Translations under genes and position numbers: made by a program
Origin: an uncultured Bacteroidia bacterium
GTDB lineage: Bacteria > Bacteroidota > Bacteroidia > Bacteroidales > UBA932
NCBI GenBank assembly: GCA_902784965.1
Contig: CACZWU010000006.1
Span: 1-51,205, forward strand
Reading direction: 5' to 3'
DNA: 51,205 nt
In this document: positions 21,695 to 41,854 of the stretch, one piece after another
How positions within the stretch are numbered: position 1 is the first letter of the stretch
Layout of the letters: each line of letters starts with the position of its first letter
Notes under the pieces: generated by a model
What the model was told of the DNA's origin: nothing
Seen by the model: only the letters and a program-made list of their open reading frames with translations
Database searches by the model: none

Positions 21695-21798
21695 AAAAAA
21701 GGGTAAGCTTGATATATCGCACCGCTACAACCACCTACCCTTGCTGCCTTCCGACCCTGGGGGAGTTCAGTGGGAGCTGGTCGTATACGACTTACCCC
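21695..21798 (-). ncRNA. ffs: Signal recognition particle RNA (bacterial small SRP RNA, 4.5S-like)
   Basis: The minus strand carries the conserved apical core GGGTCGGAAGGCAGC (21743-21757), with the GGAA tetraloop and asymmetric loop bound by Ffh. Terminal pairing brings together GGGGTAAG (21791-21798) and CTTACCC (21701-21707), giving one long hairpin about 100 bases long. A T-run (21695-21700 on the minus strand) directly follows the closing stem and ends transcription. A TACCTTTG promoter starts 5 bases upstream. There is no Alu-domain, as expected for the small bacterial type. Confidence 0.93.
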
Positions 21799-21802
21799 GG
21801 CA

Positions 21803-21810
21803 CAAAGGTA
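21803..21810 (-). promoter_or_regulatory. SRP RNA promoter -7 element
   Basis: Minus-strand TACCTTTG with TTG 22 bases upstream (21833-21835), which falls inside the first codons of mnmA. The predicted start matches the first base of the terminal RNA stem. Confidence 0.7.
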
Positions 21811-23012: not shown

Positions 23013-24533
23013 ATGATTTCCGTCATGAAACAGATTTCAGGAAGAATTCTCCTTTTCGTGTTTCTTGTTTGGGCTTTCACGGCCTGTGAGCCCGTTGAGC
23101 CCGACAACCCCGGCAAAAGCAATTCCGTGTCGCTCATGCGCTTTGCCTTCCCGGCGGGCGACAACCCCTCGCTGAACGCGACGGCGACCGCCATGTCCGT
23201 CAACAGTGTGTTCTGGGTTACTGTTCCTGCCGGCACCGACCTGACCCGGCTCGTTCCCGAAATCACCGTGTCGGAAGGCGCTTCGGTGACCGTGGCTGGT
23301 TCACCCTACACGCCGGGGAAGGCCTATGATTTCTCCGGCAATGTCGTGGGAGTGAAGGTGGTGTCGGAGTCCGGCGAACGGACGGGCAACTACCGCGTGT
23401 GCGTCAAGGAAGGCGAGCCGCAGGTCGACCGCTCCATCTACCAGTTCATGAACGACTTCAACGTACCGGGTGTTTCGGTATCGATCATGAAAGGCACGGA
23501 GGTGGTGTATTCCAGCGGCTTCGGCTTCGCCGTGGTGGAGAATGATACGCGCTGCACGCCCGACCATCTTTTCCGGATGGCCAGCATCTCGAAGCAGTTC
23601 TGCACGATGTGCATCATGACGCTCAAGGAGCAGGGCCGGCTCGAGCTCGACCAGCCGGTCTTCGGCGAGAAAGGCATCCTCAAGGGCCTGTACCACGATA
23701 TCACGCCTTACCACGAAGCGATTACAGTTCGCAATCTGCTCAGCCACAGCAGCGGCATCTGCAAAGGCCTGAGTGATCCGTGCTTCACCAATTCCTACCG
23801 CTTCTACAGCGGCACTTCCACTCCCGTTCCCACCGACACGCTGATCCAGCGCACCCTCGATGCCCGACAGCAGCCCTACGACGACGGGACGATGGTCTGG
23901 AGCCCGGGCATGGCCTACAACTACAGCAACGTCGGTTTCTGCATCCTCCACCGCATCGTGGAGGTAATCAGCGGCAAGGATTACGAGAGCTTCCTCAAAG
24001 AAGACGTGCTGGCTCCCATCGGCGTGACCGACACCCACATCGGCGGCTACCAGAACGAGCGCCGTTCCAATGAATGCGTCTACTACTCGCAGGGCGACAG
24101 CGACAGCTACCGCAATCCGCTGCGGCAAATGGCTGGCGCGGCTGGCATCATCACCTCTACCAACCAGATGATGAAGGTACTTACCTATCTGGATGGTGAC
24201 GACACGGTTCCTGACATCTTCAGTCATGAGACGATCGAAGAAATGTACACACCCTACCACTATGCGGGTTCCGGCACCTATGGCGAGAATTACAGGCGCT
24301 ACGGTCTGGGCTGGCGGATGAACCATTCCCGGCTCTTCATCGGTTCGCACTACCACGGCGGAAACATCGCCGGCACGGCCACCCTGTGGGTGGGGCACAC
24401 GGAAAATGGGATGAGTGGTGCCATCGTGTGCAACTCGCGCGCCTACAACAGCAATTCCAGCGGTGATATCGACGACAACATGTATCTCATCCTCGACGAG
24501 TTGCTCCGCTACTTCTACAACAAGGCCCAATGA
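23013..24533 (+). CDS. Serine hydrolase of the class C beta-lactamase/esterase family, lipoprotein
   Basis: Penicillin-binding-protein-like hydrolase, substrate unknown (D-amino peptide, ester or beta-lactam). The lipoprotein signal ends in FTAC; the true start is ATG 23013 or the Met five codons in (23025). Residues about 35-135 form a beta-rich domain resembling the Bacteroidota DUF5018-type module (VTVPAGTDLTRLVPEITVSEGASVTVAG). The catalytic domain has Ser191-Ile-Ser-Lys194 (SxxK), Tyr304-Ser-Asn306 (YxN) and His448-Gly-Gly (third motif), all in order. It begins immediately after mnmA and overlaps the next gene by ATGA, so it is part of a three-gene operon. Confidence 0.9.
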   Translation: MISVMKQISGRILLFVFLVWAFTACEPVEPDNPGKSNSVSLMRFAFPAGDNPSLNATATAMSVNSVFWVTVPAGTDLTRLVPEITVSEGASVTVAGSPYTPGKAYDFSGNVVGVKVVSESGERTGNYRVCVKEGEPQVDRSIYQFMNDFNVPGVSVSIMKGTEVVYSSGFGFAVVENDTRCTPDHLFRMASISKQFCTMCIMTLKEQGRLELDQPVFGEKGILKGLYHDITPYHEAITVRNLLSHSSGICKGLSDPCFTNSYRFYSGTSTPVPTDTLIQRTLDARQQPYDDGTMVWSPGMAYNYSNVGFCILHRIVEVISGKDYESFLKEDVLAPIGVTDTHIGGYQNERRSNECVYYSQGDSDSYRNPLRQMAGAAGIITSTNQMMKVLTYLDGDDTVPDIFSHETIEEMYTPYHYAGSGTYGENYRRYGLGWRMNHSRLFIGSHYHGGNIAGTATLWVGHTENGMSGAIVCNSRAYNSNSSGDIDDNMYLILDELLRYFYNKAQ

Positions 24534-25759
24534 AACGGCAGGTCGCTATCGTCGGCGGCGGCCCCGCCGGGATGATGGCGGCGATCCGGGCCGCAGAAGT
24601 CCTGGGCGACGGTGCGCGCGTGGTGCTGTTCGACAAGAACGAGCGGCTGGGCCGCAAGATCTACCTCACGGGCAAGGGCCGCTGCAACCTTACCAACCGG
24701 CGCGGTTGGGAGGAATTTTCTCCGCACATCCATCCCAACCAGGGTTTCCTCAAAAGCGCTTTCCGTGCTTTCTCCAACGAAGATCTTATCCGCTTCTTCG
24801 AAGAGGAACTCGGTGTGCCGACCGTTACCCTGCAGGGGCAGCGGGTGTATCCGGCCTCGCTGGTGGCGGGTGATGTGGCGCGGTCCCTGGAGCGGCGAGT
24901 GCATGAACTGGGCGTGGATATCCGTTACGGCACGTCGGTCGCTTCGTTGGCCGATCTGGCGGATTTCGGTGCGGTGGTCATTGCGACCGGCGGAAAGTCC
25001 TATCCGGTGACGGGGTCGACCGGCGACGGCTACCGTTTCGCTATGGAGGCCGGGCATACGGTGACGCCCGTTTTTCCGAGTGAGACGGCCTTGCTGCCCC
25101 AGGACTATGATCCGGGACTGCCGGGCATGGAGATGAAGAACGTGGGGCTGCAGCTGTATGTCGACCGGACAATGGTCGAGAGCGAGCAGGGCGATTTCAA
25201 CTTTACGGCCGACGGTCTGGAAAGCGGCATCGCCTACCATTTGAGCCGCCGCGCTGTCTGGGCCCTCTACAACGGCCAGCAGGTCGATATCGTGATGGAC
25301 CTCAAGCCGGCACTGACGGAAGCGCAATTAGTCAAACGTATGCAACGGGAGGAGCAAGCGGGTGGCTTTTGGAGCCGCGAGCATTTTTCTGCGAGCGGGA
25401 CAAAAGCCAGAGCTGCGGAGCCCGTTGCATTCCTTCGAAGATTCCTGCCGGAAGCGCTGATCGCGCCCTTTCTGCGCGCCCATCCGGGCCTGACGATCGA
25501 AAAGCTCCCCGCCGCCCTGAAATCCTGGCCCTTCCACATCGTCGACTACAAAGGCTTCGACCGCGCCGTCGTGACGGCAGGCGGTGTCAGCCTCAAGGAA
25601 ATCGTCCCCAAGACCATGGCCTCGCGCCTGCGGCCGGGCCTCTTCTTCTGCGGTGAAGTCCTCGACCTCGACGGCGACACCGGTGGCTACAACCTCCAGA
25701 TCGCCTTCTCCACTGGTGCCATGGCCGGCGCCAACGCCGCGAAGTACGTTTTAGGCTGA
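24530..25759 (+). CDS. HI0933/YhiN-family FAD-dependent oxidoreductase with an embedded repeat element
   Basis: Flavoprotein of poorly known role, annotated elsewhere as aminoacetone oxidase-like. The N-terminal FAD-binding motif is VAIVGGGPAGMMAAIRAA, followed by the family signature GRKIYLTGKGRCNLTN and, near the C terminus, VVTAGGVSLKEI...MASRLRPGLFFCGEVLDLDGDTGGYNLQIAFSTG. Between TEAQLVKRM and FLPEALIAPFL, residues from about 271 to 301 are encoded by an 89-bp nested inverted repeat (25341-25429) shared with an intergenic site. From memory of the family this loop is about 16 residues shorter elsewhere. The frame stays open, so the product is probably full length with a surface insertion; activity is uncertain. 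Confidence 0.9.
   Translation: MKRQVAIVGGGPAGMMAAIRAAEVLGDGARVVLFDKNERLGRKIYLTGKGRCNLTNRRGWEEFSPHIHPNQGFLKSAFRAFSNEDLIRFFEEELGVPTVTLQGQRVYPASLVAGDVARSLERRVHELGVDIRYGTSVASLADLADFGAVVIATGGKSYPVTGSTGDGYRFAMEAGHTVTPVFPSETALLPQDYDPGLPGMEMKNVGLQLYVDRTMVESEQGDFNFTADGLESGIAYHLSRRAVWALYNGQQVDIVMDLKPALTEAQLVKRMQREEQAGGFWSREHFSASGTKARAAEPVAFLRRFLPEALIAPFLRAHPGLTIEKLPAALKSWPFHIVDYKGFDRAVVTAGGVSLKEIVPKTMASRLRPGLFFCGEVLDLDGDTGGYNLQIAFSTGAMAGANAAKYVLG
25341..25429 (+). repeat. Nested inverted-repeat element, copy A (inside a coding sequence)
   Basis: Outer arms TGCAACGGG (25341-25349) and CCCGTTGCA (25421-25429) are perfectly complementary, as are inner arms TGGCTTTTG (25363-25371) and CAAAAGCCA (25401-25409). 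Three blocks match copy B: GCGGGTGG (25358-25365), the apex GCGAGCA-T5-CTGCGAGC (25377-25396) and CCAGAGC (25407-25413). Spacings between blocks are 11 and 10 bases, against 11 and 11 in copy B. The element is read through in frame as part of the flavoprotein gene. Copy B lies at 40760-40850. Confidence 0.8.
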
Positions 25760-31090: not shown

Positions 31091-32530
31091 ATGAAGAAAG
31101 AGAAACAATACTCATCACCCTACAGCCTGGACGGACGGCTTCCGCTCCGCACGGCTGTGCCGCTGGGGCTGCAGCATGTACTGGCCATGTTCGTCGGCAA
31201 CTTGTCGCCCCTGCTCATGATCATGGGCATCTGTGGCATCACCGCCGGTGAAGGCTTGGGTGCGTTGCGCCTGACGCTGCTGCAGAACGCGATGATCGTT
31301 TCCGGTCTGGTGACCTTCATCCAGCTCTATCCGATCGGACCCATCGGCAGCCGCCTGCCGATCGTGATGGGCACTTCCTCGGGCTTTATCGGCATCTCCA
31401 GCACCATGGCCACCAGTATGATGGCGGGTGTAGCGGCAGGTGTCATCACCACTGACGCGCTGGCGGGCATTTATGCCTATGGCGCCATTATGGGCGCCTG
31501 CCTCATCGGCGGCGTGTTCGAAATGGGACTCGGCTTTTGCATCAAACGCCTGCGCAAGTTTTTTCCGCCGGTAGTCACGGGCACGGTCGTGATGGTCATC
31601 GGTTTCAGCCTCATCCCCGTCGGTGTCGGATTTTTCGGCGGCGGCAACGATGCGGCTGACTATGGTAGCGGGCCGAACTTGCTGCTGGGCTTCATCACCC
31701 TGGCTTCCATCCTGTTCTTCCAGTTTGGTTTCAAGGGCTTCCCTTCCATCGCGTCGGTGCTTCTCGGCATCGTCGTAGGCTATCTTGCCTCGCTGGTGAT
31801 GGGCTTCGTGCTGCCCACCACCTACTTGGATGCAGCCGGGAACACACAGTATTACGCGTACGTCACGCAATGGTCGCAGGTGGACAAGGCCCCCTGGTTC
31901 ACCCTCCCCAGTTTGCTTCCTGTCCATTTGCAGTTCAACGCCAAGGCCATCATTCCGATGTGCATAATGTTCATTGTCACAGCCATTGAAACGGTGGGCG
32001 ACACCTCGGGCGTCGCCGAGGGCGGTCTGGGCCGGGAGGCAACGGACAAGGAAATGGCCGGCGCTGTCATTGCCGACGGCTTCGGCTCGTCCCTGGCCAC
32101 GTTGTTCGGCGTGATGCCCAACACTTCGTTCAGCGAGAACGTCGGTCTGGTGAGCATGACCAAGGTGGTCAACCGTTTCGCCATCGCGACGGGCGCCGGG
32201 ATCCTCGTGCTTGCCGGTCTCTTCCCGAAATTGGGCGCCGTCATCTCCATTATGCCCCAGTCGGTCCTGGGCGGTGCGGCGGTCATCATGTTTGCCAGTA
32301 TCGTGCTTTCGGGTATCCAACTGATCACGAGAGAGCCGCTGGATGCCCGCAACACCACCATCGTGGCTGTTGCCCTTGGCGTCGGCTATGGCTTGAGCAT
32401 TACCACCTCCGTCCACGAGCAGATGCCGGTCTGGCTCACGTATCTCTTCGGCGGTGCCGGTATCGTCCCGGCCGCCCTGATTGCCATCATTTTGAATATC
32501 GTCCTTCCCAAGAAGAAGCAAGAGCCATAG
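31091..32530 (+). CDS. NCS2-family xanthine/uracil permease
   Basis: Proton- or sodium-coupled nucleobase importer of the inner membrane. The start is ATG 31091 (MKKEKQYSSPYSLDGRLPL) rather than the TTG six bases earlier. About 14 hydrophobic segments fill the 479 residues. The N-terminal PLGLQHVLAMFVGNLSPLL and the signature region IVTAIETVGDTSGVAEGGLGREATDKEMAGAVIADGFGSSLATLFGVMPNTSFSENVGLV are diagnostic. The QN/TSFSEN-type segment fits xanthine/urate members rather than uracil-specific ones, but the substrate is not certain. It converges with the GH2 gene, with 9 bases between stops and no visible terminator. Confidence 0.93.
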   Translation: MKKEKQYSSPYSLDGRLPLRTAVPLGLQHVLAMFVGNLSPLLMIMGICGITAGEGLGALRLTLLQNAMIVSGLVTFIQLYPIGPIGSRLPIVMGTSSGFIGISSTMATSMMAGVAAGVITTDALAGIYAYGAIMGACLIGGVFEMGLGFCIKRLRKFFPPVVTGTVVMVIGFSLIPVGVGFFGGGNDAADYGSGPNLLLGFITLASILFFQFGFKGFPSIASVLLGIVVGYLASLVMGFVLPTTYLDAAGNTQYYAYVTQWSQVDKAPWFTLPSLLPVHLQFNAKAIIPMCIMFIVTAIETVGDTSGVAEGGLGREATDKEMAGAVIADGFGSSLATLFGVMPNTSFSENVGLVSMTKVVNRFAIATGAGILVLAGLFPKLGAVISIMPQSVLGGAAVIMFASIVLSGIQLITREPLDARNTTIVAVALGVGYGLSITTSVHEQMPVWLTYLFGGAGIVPAALIAIILNIVLPKKKQEP

Positions 32531-36797: not shown

Positions 36798-36870
36798 TGG
36801 TGCTGGGAAGAATCGAACTGCCGACACATGGATTTTCAGTCCATTGCTCTACCATCTGAGCTACAGCACC
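36798..36870 (-). tRNA. tRNA-Phe (anticodon GAA)
   Basis: The minus strand folds as a complete 73-base cloverleaf. The acceptor stem pairs GGTGCTG with CAGCACC, and the D arm contains AGCTCAGATGGTAGAGC. The anticodon loop is CTGAAAA with anticodon GAA, and the T arm contains GGCAGTTCGATTCTTCC. The discriminator base is A. The terminal CCA is not encoded. A promoter lies 12 bases upstream and a terminator 5 bases downstream, so it is a single-gene unit. Confidence 0.97.
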
Positions 36871-39821: not shown

Positions 39822-40754
39822 ATGAAGCAGGAAACGAAAGACCGGCTGGTGCGTTGCGTGAAGGAGGTGCTGCCTTCCACAACCAAGACCTGTATCTGGA
39901 TCATCAAGATCACGGTGGCCGTGTCGTTCGCGATGATGCTGCTCAAGTATTTTGACATCCTGCCCTGGATTTCAAATGCGGTCAGCCCGGTTTTCAAGAT
40001 CTTCGGCCTGCCCGGAGCGGCGGCGCTGGCCTATGTGTCGGGTTATTTCGTGAACGTGTATTCCGCCATTGCGGTAATGTCCACCCTGGATCTCGACTGG
40101 CGGGCCCTGACCATCCTCTGCACGATGATCATGTGCTCCCACTCGATGGTGCTCGAGACGGCCGTGCTCAAGAAAACCGGCGCCAGCGGGGTCCGTATGG
40201 TGATCGTCCGGACGCTGAGTGCCTTCATCCTGGGCATCGTGCTCAACCTCATCCTGCCCGGCAGCGCCGACCTGTCGGTTGCGTCGGCCGCGGTAGGAGA
40301 GAAGCTGTCGTTCTGGACCACGCTCTGGGAATGGTTTCTCTCCGCGCTGAAATTGGTGCTGATGATGGTCTGCATCATTTATTCGCTCAACATCCTGCAG
40401 CGGCTGCTGCGGGAATTCGGCGTAATGGAGAAGATTGCGAAAGTCTTTAGGCCGCTGATGTATGTCTTCGGCCTGCCTTCCAACACGGTGTTCCTTTGGA
40501 TTGTGGCCAACATTATCGGGTTGGGTTACGGTGCCGCCGCGATGCTCGATGAACTGGAGCGGGGCGACGTAAGCCACCGCGACGTCCTCCTGCTCGACAC
40601 GCACATCTGCATCTCCCACAGCAACCTCGAAGACCTTCTCTTGCTGACCGCCTGCGGTGCCGTCTGGTGGATCATGCTTCTCTCCCGCTGGGCCATGTCC
40701 ATCCTATTAGTCTGGGAACAACGATTGGAATTCTATCTTCAGCGAAACAAATAG
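39822..40754 (+). CDS. Nucleoside-recognition (Gate) domain membrane protein
   Basis: Multi-pass inner-membrane protein related to the SpmA/SpmB-type and nucleoside-transporter Gate domains; cargo unknown. It has about eight hydrophobic segments in 310 residues. Two Gate-like halves are visible, one containing FGLPGAAALAYVSGYFVNVYSAIAVM and the other VFGLPSNTVFLWIVANIIGLGYGAAAML. This internal duplication is typical. A plus-strand promoter lies 20 bases upstream of the start. The stop codon is only 5 bases before copy B of the nested inverted-repeat element. Confidence 0.85.
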   Translation: MKQETKDRLVRCVKEVLPSTTKTCIWIIKITVAVSFAMMLLKYFDILPWISNAVSPVFKIFGLPGAAALAYVSGYFVNVYSAIAVMSTLDLDWRALTILCTMIMCSHSMVLETAVLKKTGASGVRMVIVRTLSAFILGIVLNLILPGSADLSVASAAVGEKLSFWTTLWEWFLSALKLVLMMVCIIYSLNILQRLLREFGVMEKIAKVFRPLMYVFGLPSNTVFLWIVANIIGLGYGAAAMLDELERGDVSHRDVLLLDTHICISHSNLEDLLLLTACGAVWWIMLLSRWAMSILLVWEQRLEFYLQRNK

Positions 40755-40759
40755 CTGCT

Positions 40760-40850
40760 CGGCTTGTGCTTACAGGCGCGGGTGGTATTGGATTGGGCGA
40801 GCATTTTTTCTGCGAGCACAAGCCAATACCAGAGCGCCAAGCACAAGCCG
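40760..40850 (+). repeat. Nested inverted-repeat element, copy B (intergenic)
   Basis: Outer arms CGGCTTGTGCTT (40760-40771) and AAGCACAAGCCG (40839-40850) pair over 12 bp. Inner arms TGGTATTGG (40783-40791) and CCAATACCA (40823-40831) pair over 9 bp. Blocks shared with copy A are GCGGGTGG (40778-40785), GCGAGCA-T6-CTGCGAGC (40797-40817) and CCAGAGC (40829-40835). A second AGCACAAGCC at 40815-40824 duplicates the right outer arm, so the left arm has two possible partners. A separate 7-bp hairpin, CGATGAT/ATCATCG (40849-40855 with 40868-40874), follows. The T run is in the apex, not after a stem, so this is not an ordinary terminator. Confidence 0.85.
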
Positions 40851-40921: not shown

Positions 40922-41854
40922 ATGGAGAAAAGCACGATCAAATGTATCATCATCGGGAGCGGCCCTGCGGGCTATACCGCTGCCATTTACGCGGCACGCG
41001 CTGCGCTCAATCCCGTTCTGTATGAGGGACTTCAGCCCGGCGGCCAATTGACGACGACCACCGTCATCGAGAACTTCCCCGGTTACCCCGAAGGTGTCGA
41101 CGCCAACCAGCTGATGGCCGACATGCGCGCACAGGCCGTCAACCTCGGCGCAGACGTGCGCCCGGGCATGGTGTCGTCCGTCGACCTGTCAAAACGACCT
41201 TTCAAGGTGGAGATCGACGGTGAAGAAACCCTTTGGGCAGAGACCCTGATCATTGCCACCGGCGCGACTGCCAAATACCTGGGACTGCCCAGCGAAGAGA
41301 AATTCCGGGGCTTCGGCGTGTCGGCCTGCGCCACCTGCGACGGCTTCTTCTACCGTGGCAAAGATGTTGCAGTGGTTGGCGGCGGCGATACCGCCTGTGA
41401 GGAAGCCAGCTACCTGGCCCATCTCTGCAAGAAAGTCTACATGATCGTGCGCCGTAATGTCCTGCGCGCCTCCAAAGCCATGCAGGAGCGCGTCATGCAG
41501 ACGCCCAACATCGAGATCCTCTGGGAATGCCAGACCCAGGAGGTCCTGGGAGATGCGAGCGGCGTAACCGGCGTCCGTCTTGTCCGGAAGAACGGTGAAA
41601 CGTTCGAGAAAACCATCGACGGCTTCTTCCTGGCCATCGGGCACCAGCCCCAGTCGGGCCTGTTCAAGGAATGGGTGGAGACCGACGAGAACGGCTACAT
41701 CCTCACCGACGGCAAGAGTTCCCGTACCAACGTGGAAGGCGTCTTTGCCGCCGGCGACGTGCAGGATCCGCAGTATCGCCAGGCCATCGCGGCTGCTGGC
41801 AGCGGCTGCCGGGCGGCCCTGGATGCCGAAAGATACATTTTGTCAAAACAATGA
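40922..41854 (+). CDS. trxB: Thioredoxin-disulfide reductase
   Basis: NADPH-dependent flavoenzyme that reduces thioredoxin. FAD-binding GSGPAGYTAAIYAARA is at the N terminus. The redox disulfide is Cys136-Ala-Thr-Cys139 in SACATCDGFFY, followed by the NADPH loop VVGGGDTACEEA and the C-terminal FAD contact GVFAAGDVQDPQYRQAIAAAGSG. At 310 residues it is the standard low-molecular-weight form. Its TGA overlaps the bamD start as ATGA (41851-41854), beginning a chain of coupled genes. Confidence 0.97.
   Translation: MEKSTIKCIIIGSGPAGYTAAIYAARAALNPVLYEGLQPGGQLTTTTVIENFPGYPEGVDANQLMADMRAQAVNLGADVRPGMVSSVDLSKRPFKVEIDGEETLWAETLIIATGATAKYLGLPSEEKFRGFGVSACATCDGFFYRGKDVAVVGGGDTACEEASYLAHLCKKVYMIVRRNVLRASKAMQERVMQTPNIEILWECQTQEVLGDASGVTGVRLVRKNGETFEKTIDGFFLAIGHQPQSGLFKEWVETDENGYILTDGKSSRTNVEGVFAAGDVQDPQYRQAIAAAGSGCRAALDAERYILSKQ

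Follow-up and report, generated by a model that had tools for sequence, protein, structure and literature searches.

This analysis indicated that the palindromic unit at positions 40760-40850 (copy B) of the window, i.e., the whole stretch of 51,205 nucleotides analyzed here from an uncultured Bacteroidia bacterium, probably belongs to a family of non-autonomous palindromic insertion elements that is restricted to one lineage and is defined by a fold and not by sequence. The sequence-only reading of this DNA had proposed an unrecognized multi-copy family of nested inverted repeats with covarying arms and conserved blocks, and this main claim is supported by the finding of many more copies and by the absence of an Rfam match. 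The features concerned are given below, where R1 denotes a covariance model trained on 26 copies (own genome, 20; named relatives, 6).

40760..40850, plus strand: copy B, whole 91-bp unit including the outer arms (R1 61.4 bits; DNA fold z -8.96; 99% identical second copy)
40760..40771, plus strand: 5' outer arm CGGCTTGTGCTT, pairing with 40839-40850 (fold)
40839..40850, plus strand: 3' outer arm AAGCACAAGCCG (fold)
40778..40785, plus strand: 5' foot block GCGGGTGG (sequence; conserved in alignment A1)
40783..40791, plus strand: 5' inner arm TGGTATTGG, copy-specific (fold; arm-pairing test)
40797..40817, plus strand: cap GCGAGCA-T6-CTGCGAGC, with tandem G.A mismatches and a T-rich loop (pattern match, alignment, fold)
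40823..40831, plus strand: 3' inner arm CCAATACCA (fold; arm-pairing test)
40829..40835, plus strand: 3' foot block CCAGAGC (sequence; alignment A1)
39822..40754, plus strand: upstream neighbor of copy B, Gate / nucleoside-recognition domain protein (Pfam PF07670)
40922..41854, plus strand: downstream neighbor of copy B, Pyr_redox_2 protein (Pfam PF07992), presumably trxB
25341..25429, plus strand: copy A, within a coding gene (R1 93.9 bits, copy A being a training member of R1; DNA fold z -5.74)
24530..25759, plus strand: HI0933-like flavoprotein ORF holding copy A in frame (Pfam PF03486, E 8.7e-74; orthologues with and without the insert)

The blocks that copies A and B were said to share were all present in the sequence at the spacings described: GCGGGTGG at 40778-40785 in copy B and 25358-25365 in copy A, GCGAGCA-T(6 or 5)-CTGCGAGC at 40797-40817 (T6) and 25377-25396, and CCAGAGC at 40829-40835 and 25407-25413, with spacers of 11 and 11 bases in copy B and of 11 and 10 in copy A. 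The arms, claimed to differ between the copies yet to pair in each, indeed did so in the sequence and in the predicted DNA folds, with 12 outer, 5 and 9 inner pairs in copy B, and with 9 outer and 9 inner pairs, and 5 pairs between them, in copy A. The blocks had also been described as conserved and unpaired; conserved they are, but unpaired only in part: they contain internal loops rich in G.A, namely GGG/GA at the feet and tandem GA/GA in the cap, which are bordered by GC pairs. As single-stranded DNA, copy B had a predicted folding energy of -35.2 kcal/mol, versus -13.9 for shuffles; its z as RNA was -8.30, and its opposite strand folded too, albeit less well (-30.8). A chance fold was rejected, with none of 200 dinucleotide shuffles folding as well. 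A transcription terminator was also rejected because the T-run sits in the loop and not after the stem, while carriage of copy B by plasmids or phages was rejected on the basis of blastn searches that gave no match in two collections.

The covariance-model search proposed by the sequence-only reading was run on the own genome and its relatives, and clearly enlarged the family. In the window, copies A and B were the sole matches to R1, and 52 copies were found in the own genome, 32 of them outside the training set. At E<=0.01 with stricter filters, R1 matched 19 of 61 genomes: that of the window, plus those of 18 out of 36 species sampled in its genus (a few of which had supplied training copies), with 1 to 48 short-form copies per positive species; the 24 genomes taken from other genera of the order gave no match. 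Across 37 genomes of the genus, the own included, 324 matches were counted, and Bacteroidales/Bacteroidia MAG contigs carrying the element include CAMVKH010000002.1 and CAJONI010000050.1. The cap pattern is commoner than chance, since the own genome gave 21 matches, versus none in a control read backwards. A pattern scan of genome contigs gave at least 116 stretches, mostly chance matches; once GGGT or CAGAG had been required close by and the rest inspected by eye, seven loci were kept as real relatives (L037, L057, L082, L089, L096, L122 and L127), and the unfiltered stretches may hold variants. Alignment A1 took in six of these seven, L082 being omitted, as was L014, which has an insertion in the stem. 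In a first scan of viral contigs (67 stretches), no convincing member was seen among the matches listed.

According to the alignment, the short form has, from the outside inward, outer arms, a looped foot, a stem that varies between copies, and a cap. The outer arms vary, often with GCGNAGC-type blocks, the foot is GCGG[GA][TC]/[AG]GAGC with a G.A-type internal loop, and the cap is GC-GA-GCA-T5/6-C-TGC-GA-GC with tandem G.A mismatches, replaced by perfect pairs in some copies (e.g., C28:8141 and C5:2602 in the own genome). Arm pairing was tested on 49 of the 52 own copies, three without a scorable core being left out. Over the nine positions inward from the foot, within-copy Watson-Crick pairing reached 0.964, versus 0.701 on average and never above 0.760 when right arms were dealt among copies (2000 shuffles), and this with 29 distinct variable arms; uninterrupted pairing fell below nine in 7 of the 49. 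Of the two strands, the sense one gave the better fold in 45 of 49 copies when treated as RNA and in 46 of 49 when treated as DNA, as expected from its G.A mismatches, which are C.T in the complement.

The remark of the sequence-only reading that it knew no named family with this layout held against Rfam for the window, for copy B and for six loci. The window gave only SRP and tRNA above cut-off; with copy B as query, E<=10 let through nothing but animal miRNA families, which scored well under their gathering cut-offs; and six element loci (four with long or mosaic forms, see below) gave no Rfam 15 match at E<=1. The SRP match is a Bacteroidales small SRP RNA (21697-21804, minus strand), which marks the DNA as coming from that order, and the tRNA gene lies at 36798-36870, also on the minus strand. 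Four element strings of 17-20 bases did not occur in the literature searched; no description of the family was found in the available portions of work on palindromic and REP repeats, RPE, RAYT, structured RNAs and in-frame palindromes, nor in those of PMC3733652 and PMC2864571.

Among the three explanations put forward by the sequence-only reading (a mobile hairpin, a recombinase site or a structured RNA), the non-autonomous mobile hairpin is favored on account of empty sites, of a nearly identical twin with unrelated flanks and of both orientations relative to genes. The twin of copy B, at C8:43424-43514 in the own genome, is 91 bp long and 99% identical. The comparison of occupied with empty sites was run between sister species. 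The copy B site was examined in 28 of 40 genomes of the genus; both neighbors were placed in 23, the own included, and 5 lacked a neighbor. A short spacer without insert was found in 17 of the 22 relatives with both neighbors placed, and two further sites were empty in relatives: the insert region around C8:40329 is absent from genomes G026 and G003 (G006 has an unrelated spacer there), and that around C8:31569 is absent from G026. Longer inserts or spacers occupied the copy B site in six genomes, i.e., G000 (own), G007, G026, G023, G012 and G030. The insert is a different member of the family in G007, and consists of similar outer arms around other sequence in G026; in G003, where a neighbor is missing at the locus, an R1 match directly follows the upstream gene of copy B. 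In the C8:40329 region, the element is accompanied by another in inverted orientation, whose long-form cap is truncated, and the two make a BIME-like pair. No target-site duplication was seen by eye at the two 91-bp, 99% identical copies, and the empty sites in relatives are too diverged for fixing the edges of the element.

When genes were called by a simple codon-based method, the 52 own copies proved to be intergenic in 39 cases, inside ORFs in 9 and overlapping an ORF end in 4. Between co-directional genes, 14 copies were in sense and 7 in antisense orientation, while 12 lay between convergent and 6 between divergent genes; 6 intragenic copies were sense and 3 antisense. GC skew of the flanks, taken in element orientation, averaged -0.028 and was positive for 14 of 52 copies (permutation p 0.001); no claim about the strand is drawn from it, given its confounding with gene direction and the weak skews of the contigs. 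Two local observations should also be mentioned. A stretch of 777 bases at G026:C18:36614-37390, element included, is 97% identical to contig C8 of the own genome, other long matches there reaching 84-89%, and would reflect either recent transfer or contamination. At L459:3431-3760 (about 31430-31760 of the same contig C8), tandem half-unit repeats CCTAAGGTTTGCACC..CAGCTCG adjoin one copy, which suggests slippage or partial copying.

Copy A amends the earlier picture, as it is not intergenic: it lies in frame within an intact ORF of 409 amino acids (24530-25759). Among 25 genomes aligned, the element was in frame in the linker of this flavoprotein in four species (G000, G003, G007 and G023), and the linkers of G026 and G006 look like remnants of it. 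Other palindromic inserts stood at the same place in G014, G017, G063 and G022, other genomes having a short linker, and this linker is an insertion-tolerant place. Unrelated palindromic inserts of the AGAACCTTTCAAACCC..GGGTTTGAAGAACC type were observed at the linker loci L370, L371, L377 and L376. The outer arms of copy A and its orthologues are ATGCAACGGG/CCCGTTGCAT in G000, CTGCAACGGG/CCCGTTGCAG in G003 and ATGAAACGGA/TCCGTTTCAT in G007, and three positions change on both sides together among these three genomes; good pairing is lost in G023. Judging from the alignment, the left outer arm would correspond to native coding sequence and the right arm to its inverse. A second intragenic case was found in G000, G003 and G026, in the linker of a protein that reads as DnaX-like from its translation. 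All six sense copies in predicted ORFs read the cap as ..[RA]EHF.., sharing one reading frame there, and at the foot five of the six do so. This shared frame is not forced by stop codons, because the three sense frames were open in 40, 40 and 37 of 41 copies (of the 49, those inside genes being left out). Elements had 4.39 open frames on average, versus 2.42 in composition shuffles, 2.51 in palindrome-preserving shuffles and 3.86 in flanking genomic windows of the same length.

The feet and outer arms of copy B recur on longer units. Very similar arms are present on both sides of L396, an intact long form, and of L292, a mosaic that is partly masked, and a copy B-like outer arm stands on the left side of L395 and on the right side of L398. 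The order of the long-form cap is S1 - S2 - S1' - linker - S2' - AGGGG - P4 hairpin - AGGG - P5 hairpin, and this cap is a predicted H-type pseudoknot. In 40 distinct caps, counted cells paired at 99.2% in S1, 99.5% in S2 and 92.5% at the P4 base. However, CCC/GGG was a condition of the search expression, both in S2 and at the base of P4; these pairs constitute no evidence, and unfitting caps (e.g., L438 and L439) fall out; the case for the long form therefore depends on S1, two free S2 positions and the P4 stem. At the free S2 positions, within-cap pairing was 0.988, versus 0.645 when shuffled (maximum 0.775 of 2000), and P4 stem pairing was 0.895 versus 0.517 (n=38), while S1 occurs as AACC/GGTT, TGCC/GGCA, AAGC/GCTT, AGCC/GGCT, GGCC/GGCC, CTGC/GCAG and others. 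The covariation score was 0.331, versus 0.097 in shuffles, none of 500 being as high, and most of this signal was abolished by sliding the helix partners. Two of five measures were no higher than shuffles, namely pairs with a double change (7 versus 5.6; 59 of 500 shuffles) and further pair types (17 versus 16.6; 271 of 500). Alignment A2 comprised 36 of 42 long caps and A3 all 40 caps matched by the expression just described; the outer S1 pair was gapped in 23 of the 40 rows of A3, and a separate anchored count was made.

The long-form pattern was found in 28 of 40 genomes of the genus, with 334 matches (including a few overlapping double matches) and none in the reversed control. R2, a covariance model of the long-form cap, found it in the own genome and in four others, each of another genus, among 295 genomes from 184 genera of the order; the pseudoknot thus occurs in a few Bacteroidales, of several families. 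Abundant genus-wide copies of the long form, among them L436, L442 and L435, have copy-specific arms exceeding 30 bp in some cases. Among 37 genomes, all 19 with the short form also had the long form and 8 had the long form alone, for which reason the short cap is read as derived. It would most likely be a reduced replacement for the pseudoknotted cap, because both forms share their feet and, in copy B, their outer arms. The long-form pseudoknot, for which the loci searched gave no Rfam 15 match, is a further structured motif that may merit a study of its own.

With regard to known systems, the best reading is that the element works like REP/RPE-type palindromic repeats. As with REP/BIME sequences and their RAYT (TnpA-REP) enzymes, the element is a short, mostly intergenic hairpin, present in tens of copies, in both orientations and with some inverted pairs, and RAYT-type genes exist in its genus. 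Double-foot REPs and in-frame REP insertions are also described in the accessible part of PMC6006769. It differs from REPs by its nested unit of about 57-91 nt, as opposed to the 20-40 given in the available text of PMC3733652, by a foot GCGG[GA][TC]G[GA] without a conserved GT[AG]G (GTGG occurs in many copies but not all), by a stem whose sequence varies while loops and feet are fixed, and by the lack of any copy beside a RAYT gene. Rickettsia palindromic elements are likewise palindromic and found both between genes and in frame within them (RPE side from the consulted part of PMC10969869), a trait seen here in the six sense copies in predicted ORFs; compared by description alone, they are set apart from a family defined by feet, cap and free stems and including a pseudoknotted long form. 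The small size, interspersed distribution, hairpin formation and lack of any observed coding capacity are reminiscent of MITEs, of which Porphyromonas BrickBuilt is an example. The available text of PMC10969869 nevertheless gives terminal inverted repeats and, in young elements, target duplications as typical of MITEs, whereas here the arms vary (29 distinct in 49 copies, with outer arms that also differ), the middle and feet are conserved, and visual inspection of the 99% identical pair showed no target duplication.

It is possible, although we consider it doubtful, that the element is simply a REP-type hairpin moved in trans by one of the tyrosine (HUH) transposases of the genus. PF01797 (RAYT/IS200-type) was matched at E<=0.001 in 27 of 40 genomes of the genus, 25 of them above the family cut-off, and was present in 18 of 19 short-form genomes versus 8 of 18 others (p 0.0011, kinship ignored) and in 24 of 28 long-form genomes versus 3 of 12 others (p 0.0004, kinship ignored). 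This association was, however, reckoned without phylogeny, and PF01797 covers IS200-type transposases too. Besides, none of 68 PF01797 loci (213,171 bases; RAYT frame recognized by motif scan in 41) carried the short element at a credible R1 score (best 12.4 bits, E 0.14), no strict long-form pattern stood among the matches listed for these loci, and many of the RAYT flanks read carry other, differing hairpins. GT[AG]G is not conserved, GTGG occurring as GTGA, GCGG or ATGG, and no PF01797 match at E<=0.001 was found in G017 (8 short and 9 long copies; 87% complete) or in G020 (20 long copies; 96% complete). RAYT subclass 2.6, mostly of Bacteroidetes, is reportedly flanked by atypical structures, according to the part of PMC6006769 available, which would fit such a mobilizer. 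Several RAYT genes among L293-L335 have nested hairpin flanks of their own, with GTGGC/GCCAC-type feet and inner arms AATCGTGTGCG.., AATCGGTTGCG.. and CTTTCTGTCC... A reverse-transcriptase route was rejected, neither form being associated with it (p 0.72 and 0.71); PF00078 was found in 12 of 40 genomes of the genus and was not detected in the own genome (78% complete).

Three further explanations appear improbable. Arm-to-arm template switching among interspersed copies can generate covariation without selection, and such quasipalindrome correction alone might keep the palindromes perfect; homogenization of inverted repeats by template switching is documented in the accessible parts of PMC7202029 and PMC8604942, and the perfect arms of unrelated sequence, like the right outer arm that mirrors the left one, aligned with native coding sequence, in the flavoprotein gene of three species, speak for it. 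We nevertheless give it a low probability as the sole process, given that the mismatched loops of foot and cap are conserved and left uncorrected in most copies and that sites occupied here are empty in relatives. A structured RNA, whereby transcribed copies would act as folded mRNA motifs in stability, processing, self-cleavage or protein binding, is kept as a reading in view of the strand bias of the fold and of the covarying pseudoknot in the long form; the G.A-rich internal loops are also RNA-like, and sense copies make up 14 of the 21 that lie between co-directional genes and 6 of the 9 that are intragenic. It seems, however, about as improbable as template switching, since the 12 convergent, 6 divergent and 7 antisense co-directional copies indicate that sense transcription is not a given for a large part of the family, and since presence varies among species of the genus. 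An integron- or Xer-like recombination site, with a hairpin as attachment site, would share the conservation of structure over sequence and the strand bias of the hairpin, but is highly improbable for copies that occur alone or two together, with ordinary genes on either side or within a gene.

From a mechanistic point of view, the favored mobile hairpin could spread as follows. Replication or repair would expose one DNA strand; the sense strand, with mismatches of the G.A and not the C.T kind, would then fold into the nested hairpin, and a trans-acting, structure-reading single-strand DNA enzyme would insert the folded element elsewhere, a RAYT-like HUH nuclease being the leading, unproven candidate. 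The stems may be kept perfect by selection for the fold, by template-switch repair between arms, or by both. A wider and rather unlikely proposal is that the fold itself, and not the sequence, is the inherited information of the mobile element: the enzyme would read feet and cap in single-stranded DNA, the stem would be rewritten at each site by arm-templated copying, with host sequence even borrowed as one arm, and the caps (T-loop hairpin or pseudoknot) would be interchangeable modules. With hundreds of copies, empty sites, sister species, two caps and copies in genes, this family offers a natural series in which one may ask whether bacterial palindromic repeats spread via a structure-reading enzyme, and how their arms stay perfect.

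The long form alone also resembles intrastrand-triplex repeats (E. coli BoxC / PIT / ITxF TM motif), by way of its G-rich cap core GGGAGGGGCCC[stem]GGGAGGG, which is also found on viral-collection contigs, often joined there to CCCTCTCCC..GGGAGAGGG and TGAGGG. A full triplex is impossible in 26 of 40 long-form caps because their S2 purine strand holds a pyrimidine, and the short form differs by lacking that G-rich core: the copy B sequence contains no homopurine run with a pyrimidine strand and a mirrored third strand. A long-form-like core with a free hairpin was present in 94 viral-collection stretches, many in the frame CCCTCTCCC..GGGAGAGGGAGGGGCCC[stem]GGGAGGGTGAGGG, which resembles the TM motif of bacterial intrastrand-triplex repeats as given in the portion of PMC4666352 available. 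R2 gave 94 matches at E<=0.01 over 80 of these 94 stretches, with 20.5-38.6 bits, i.e., weaker than in Bacteroidales, and five such loci had no Rfam match at gathering. On the viral-collection contigs of L505, L507, L520, L538 and L541, the GGGAGGGGCCC[stem]GGGAGGG core is repeated 4-6 times per contig, often 1.2-2.4 kb apart.
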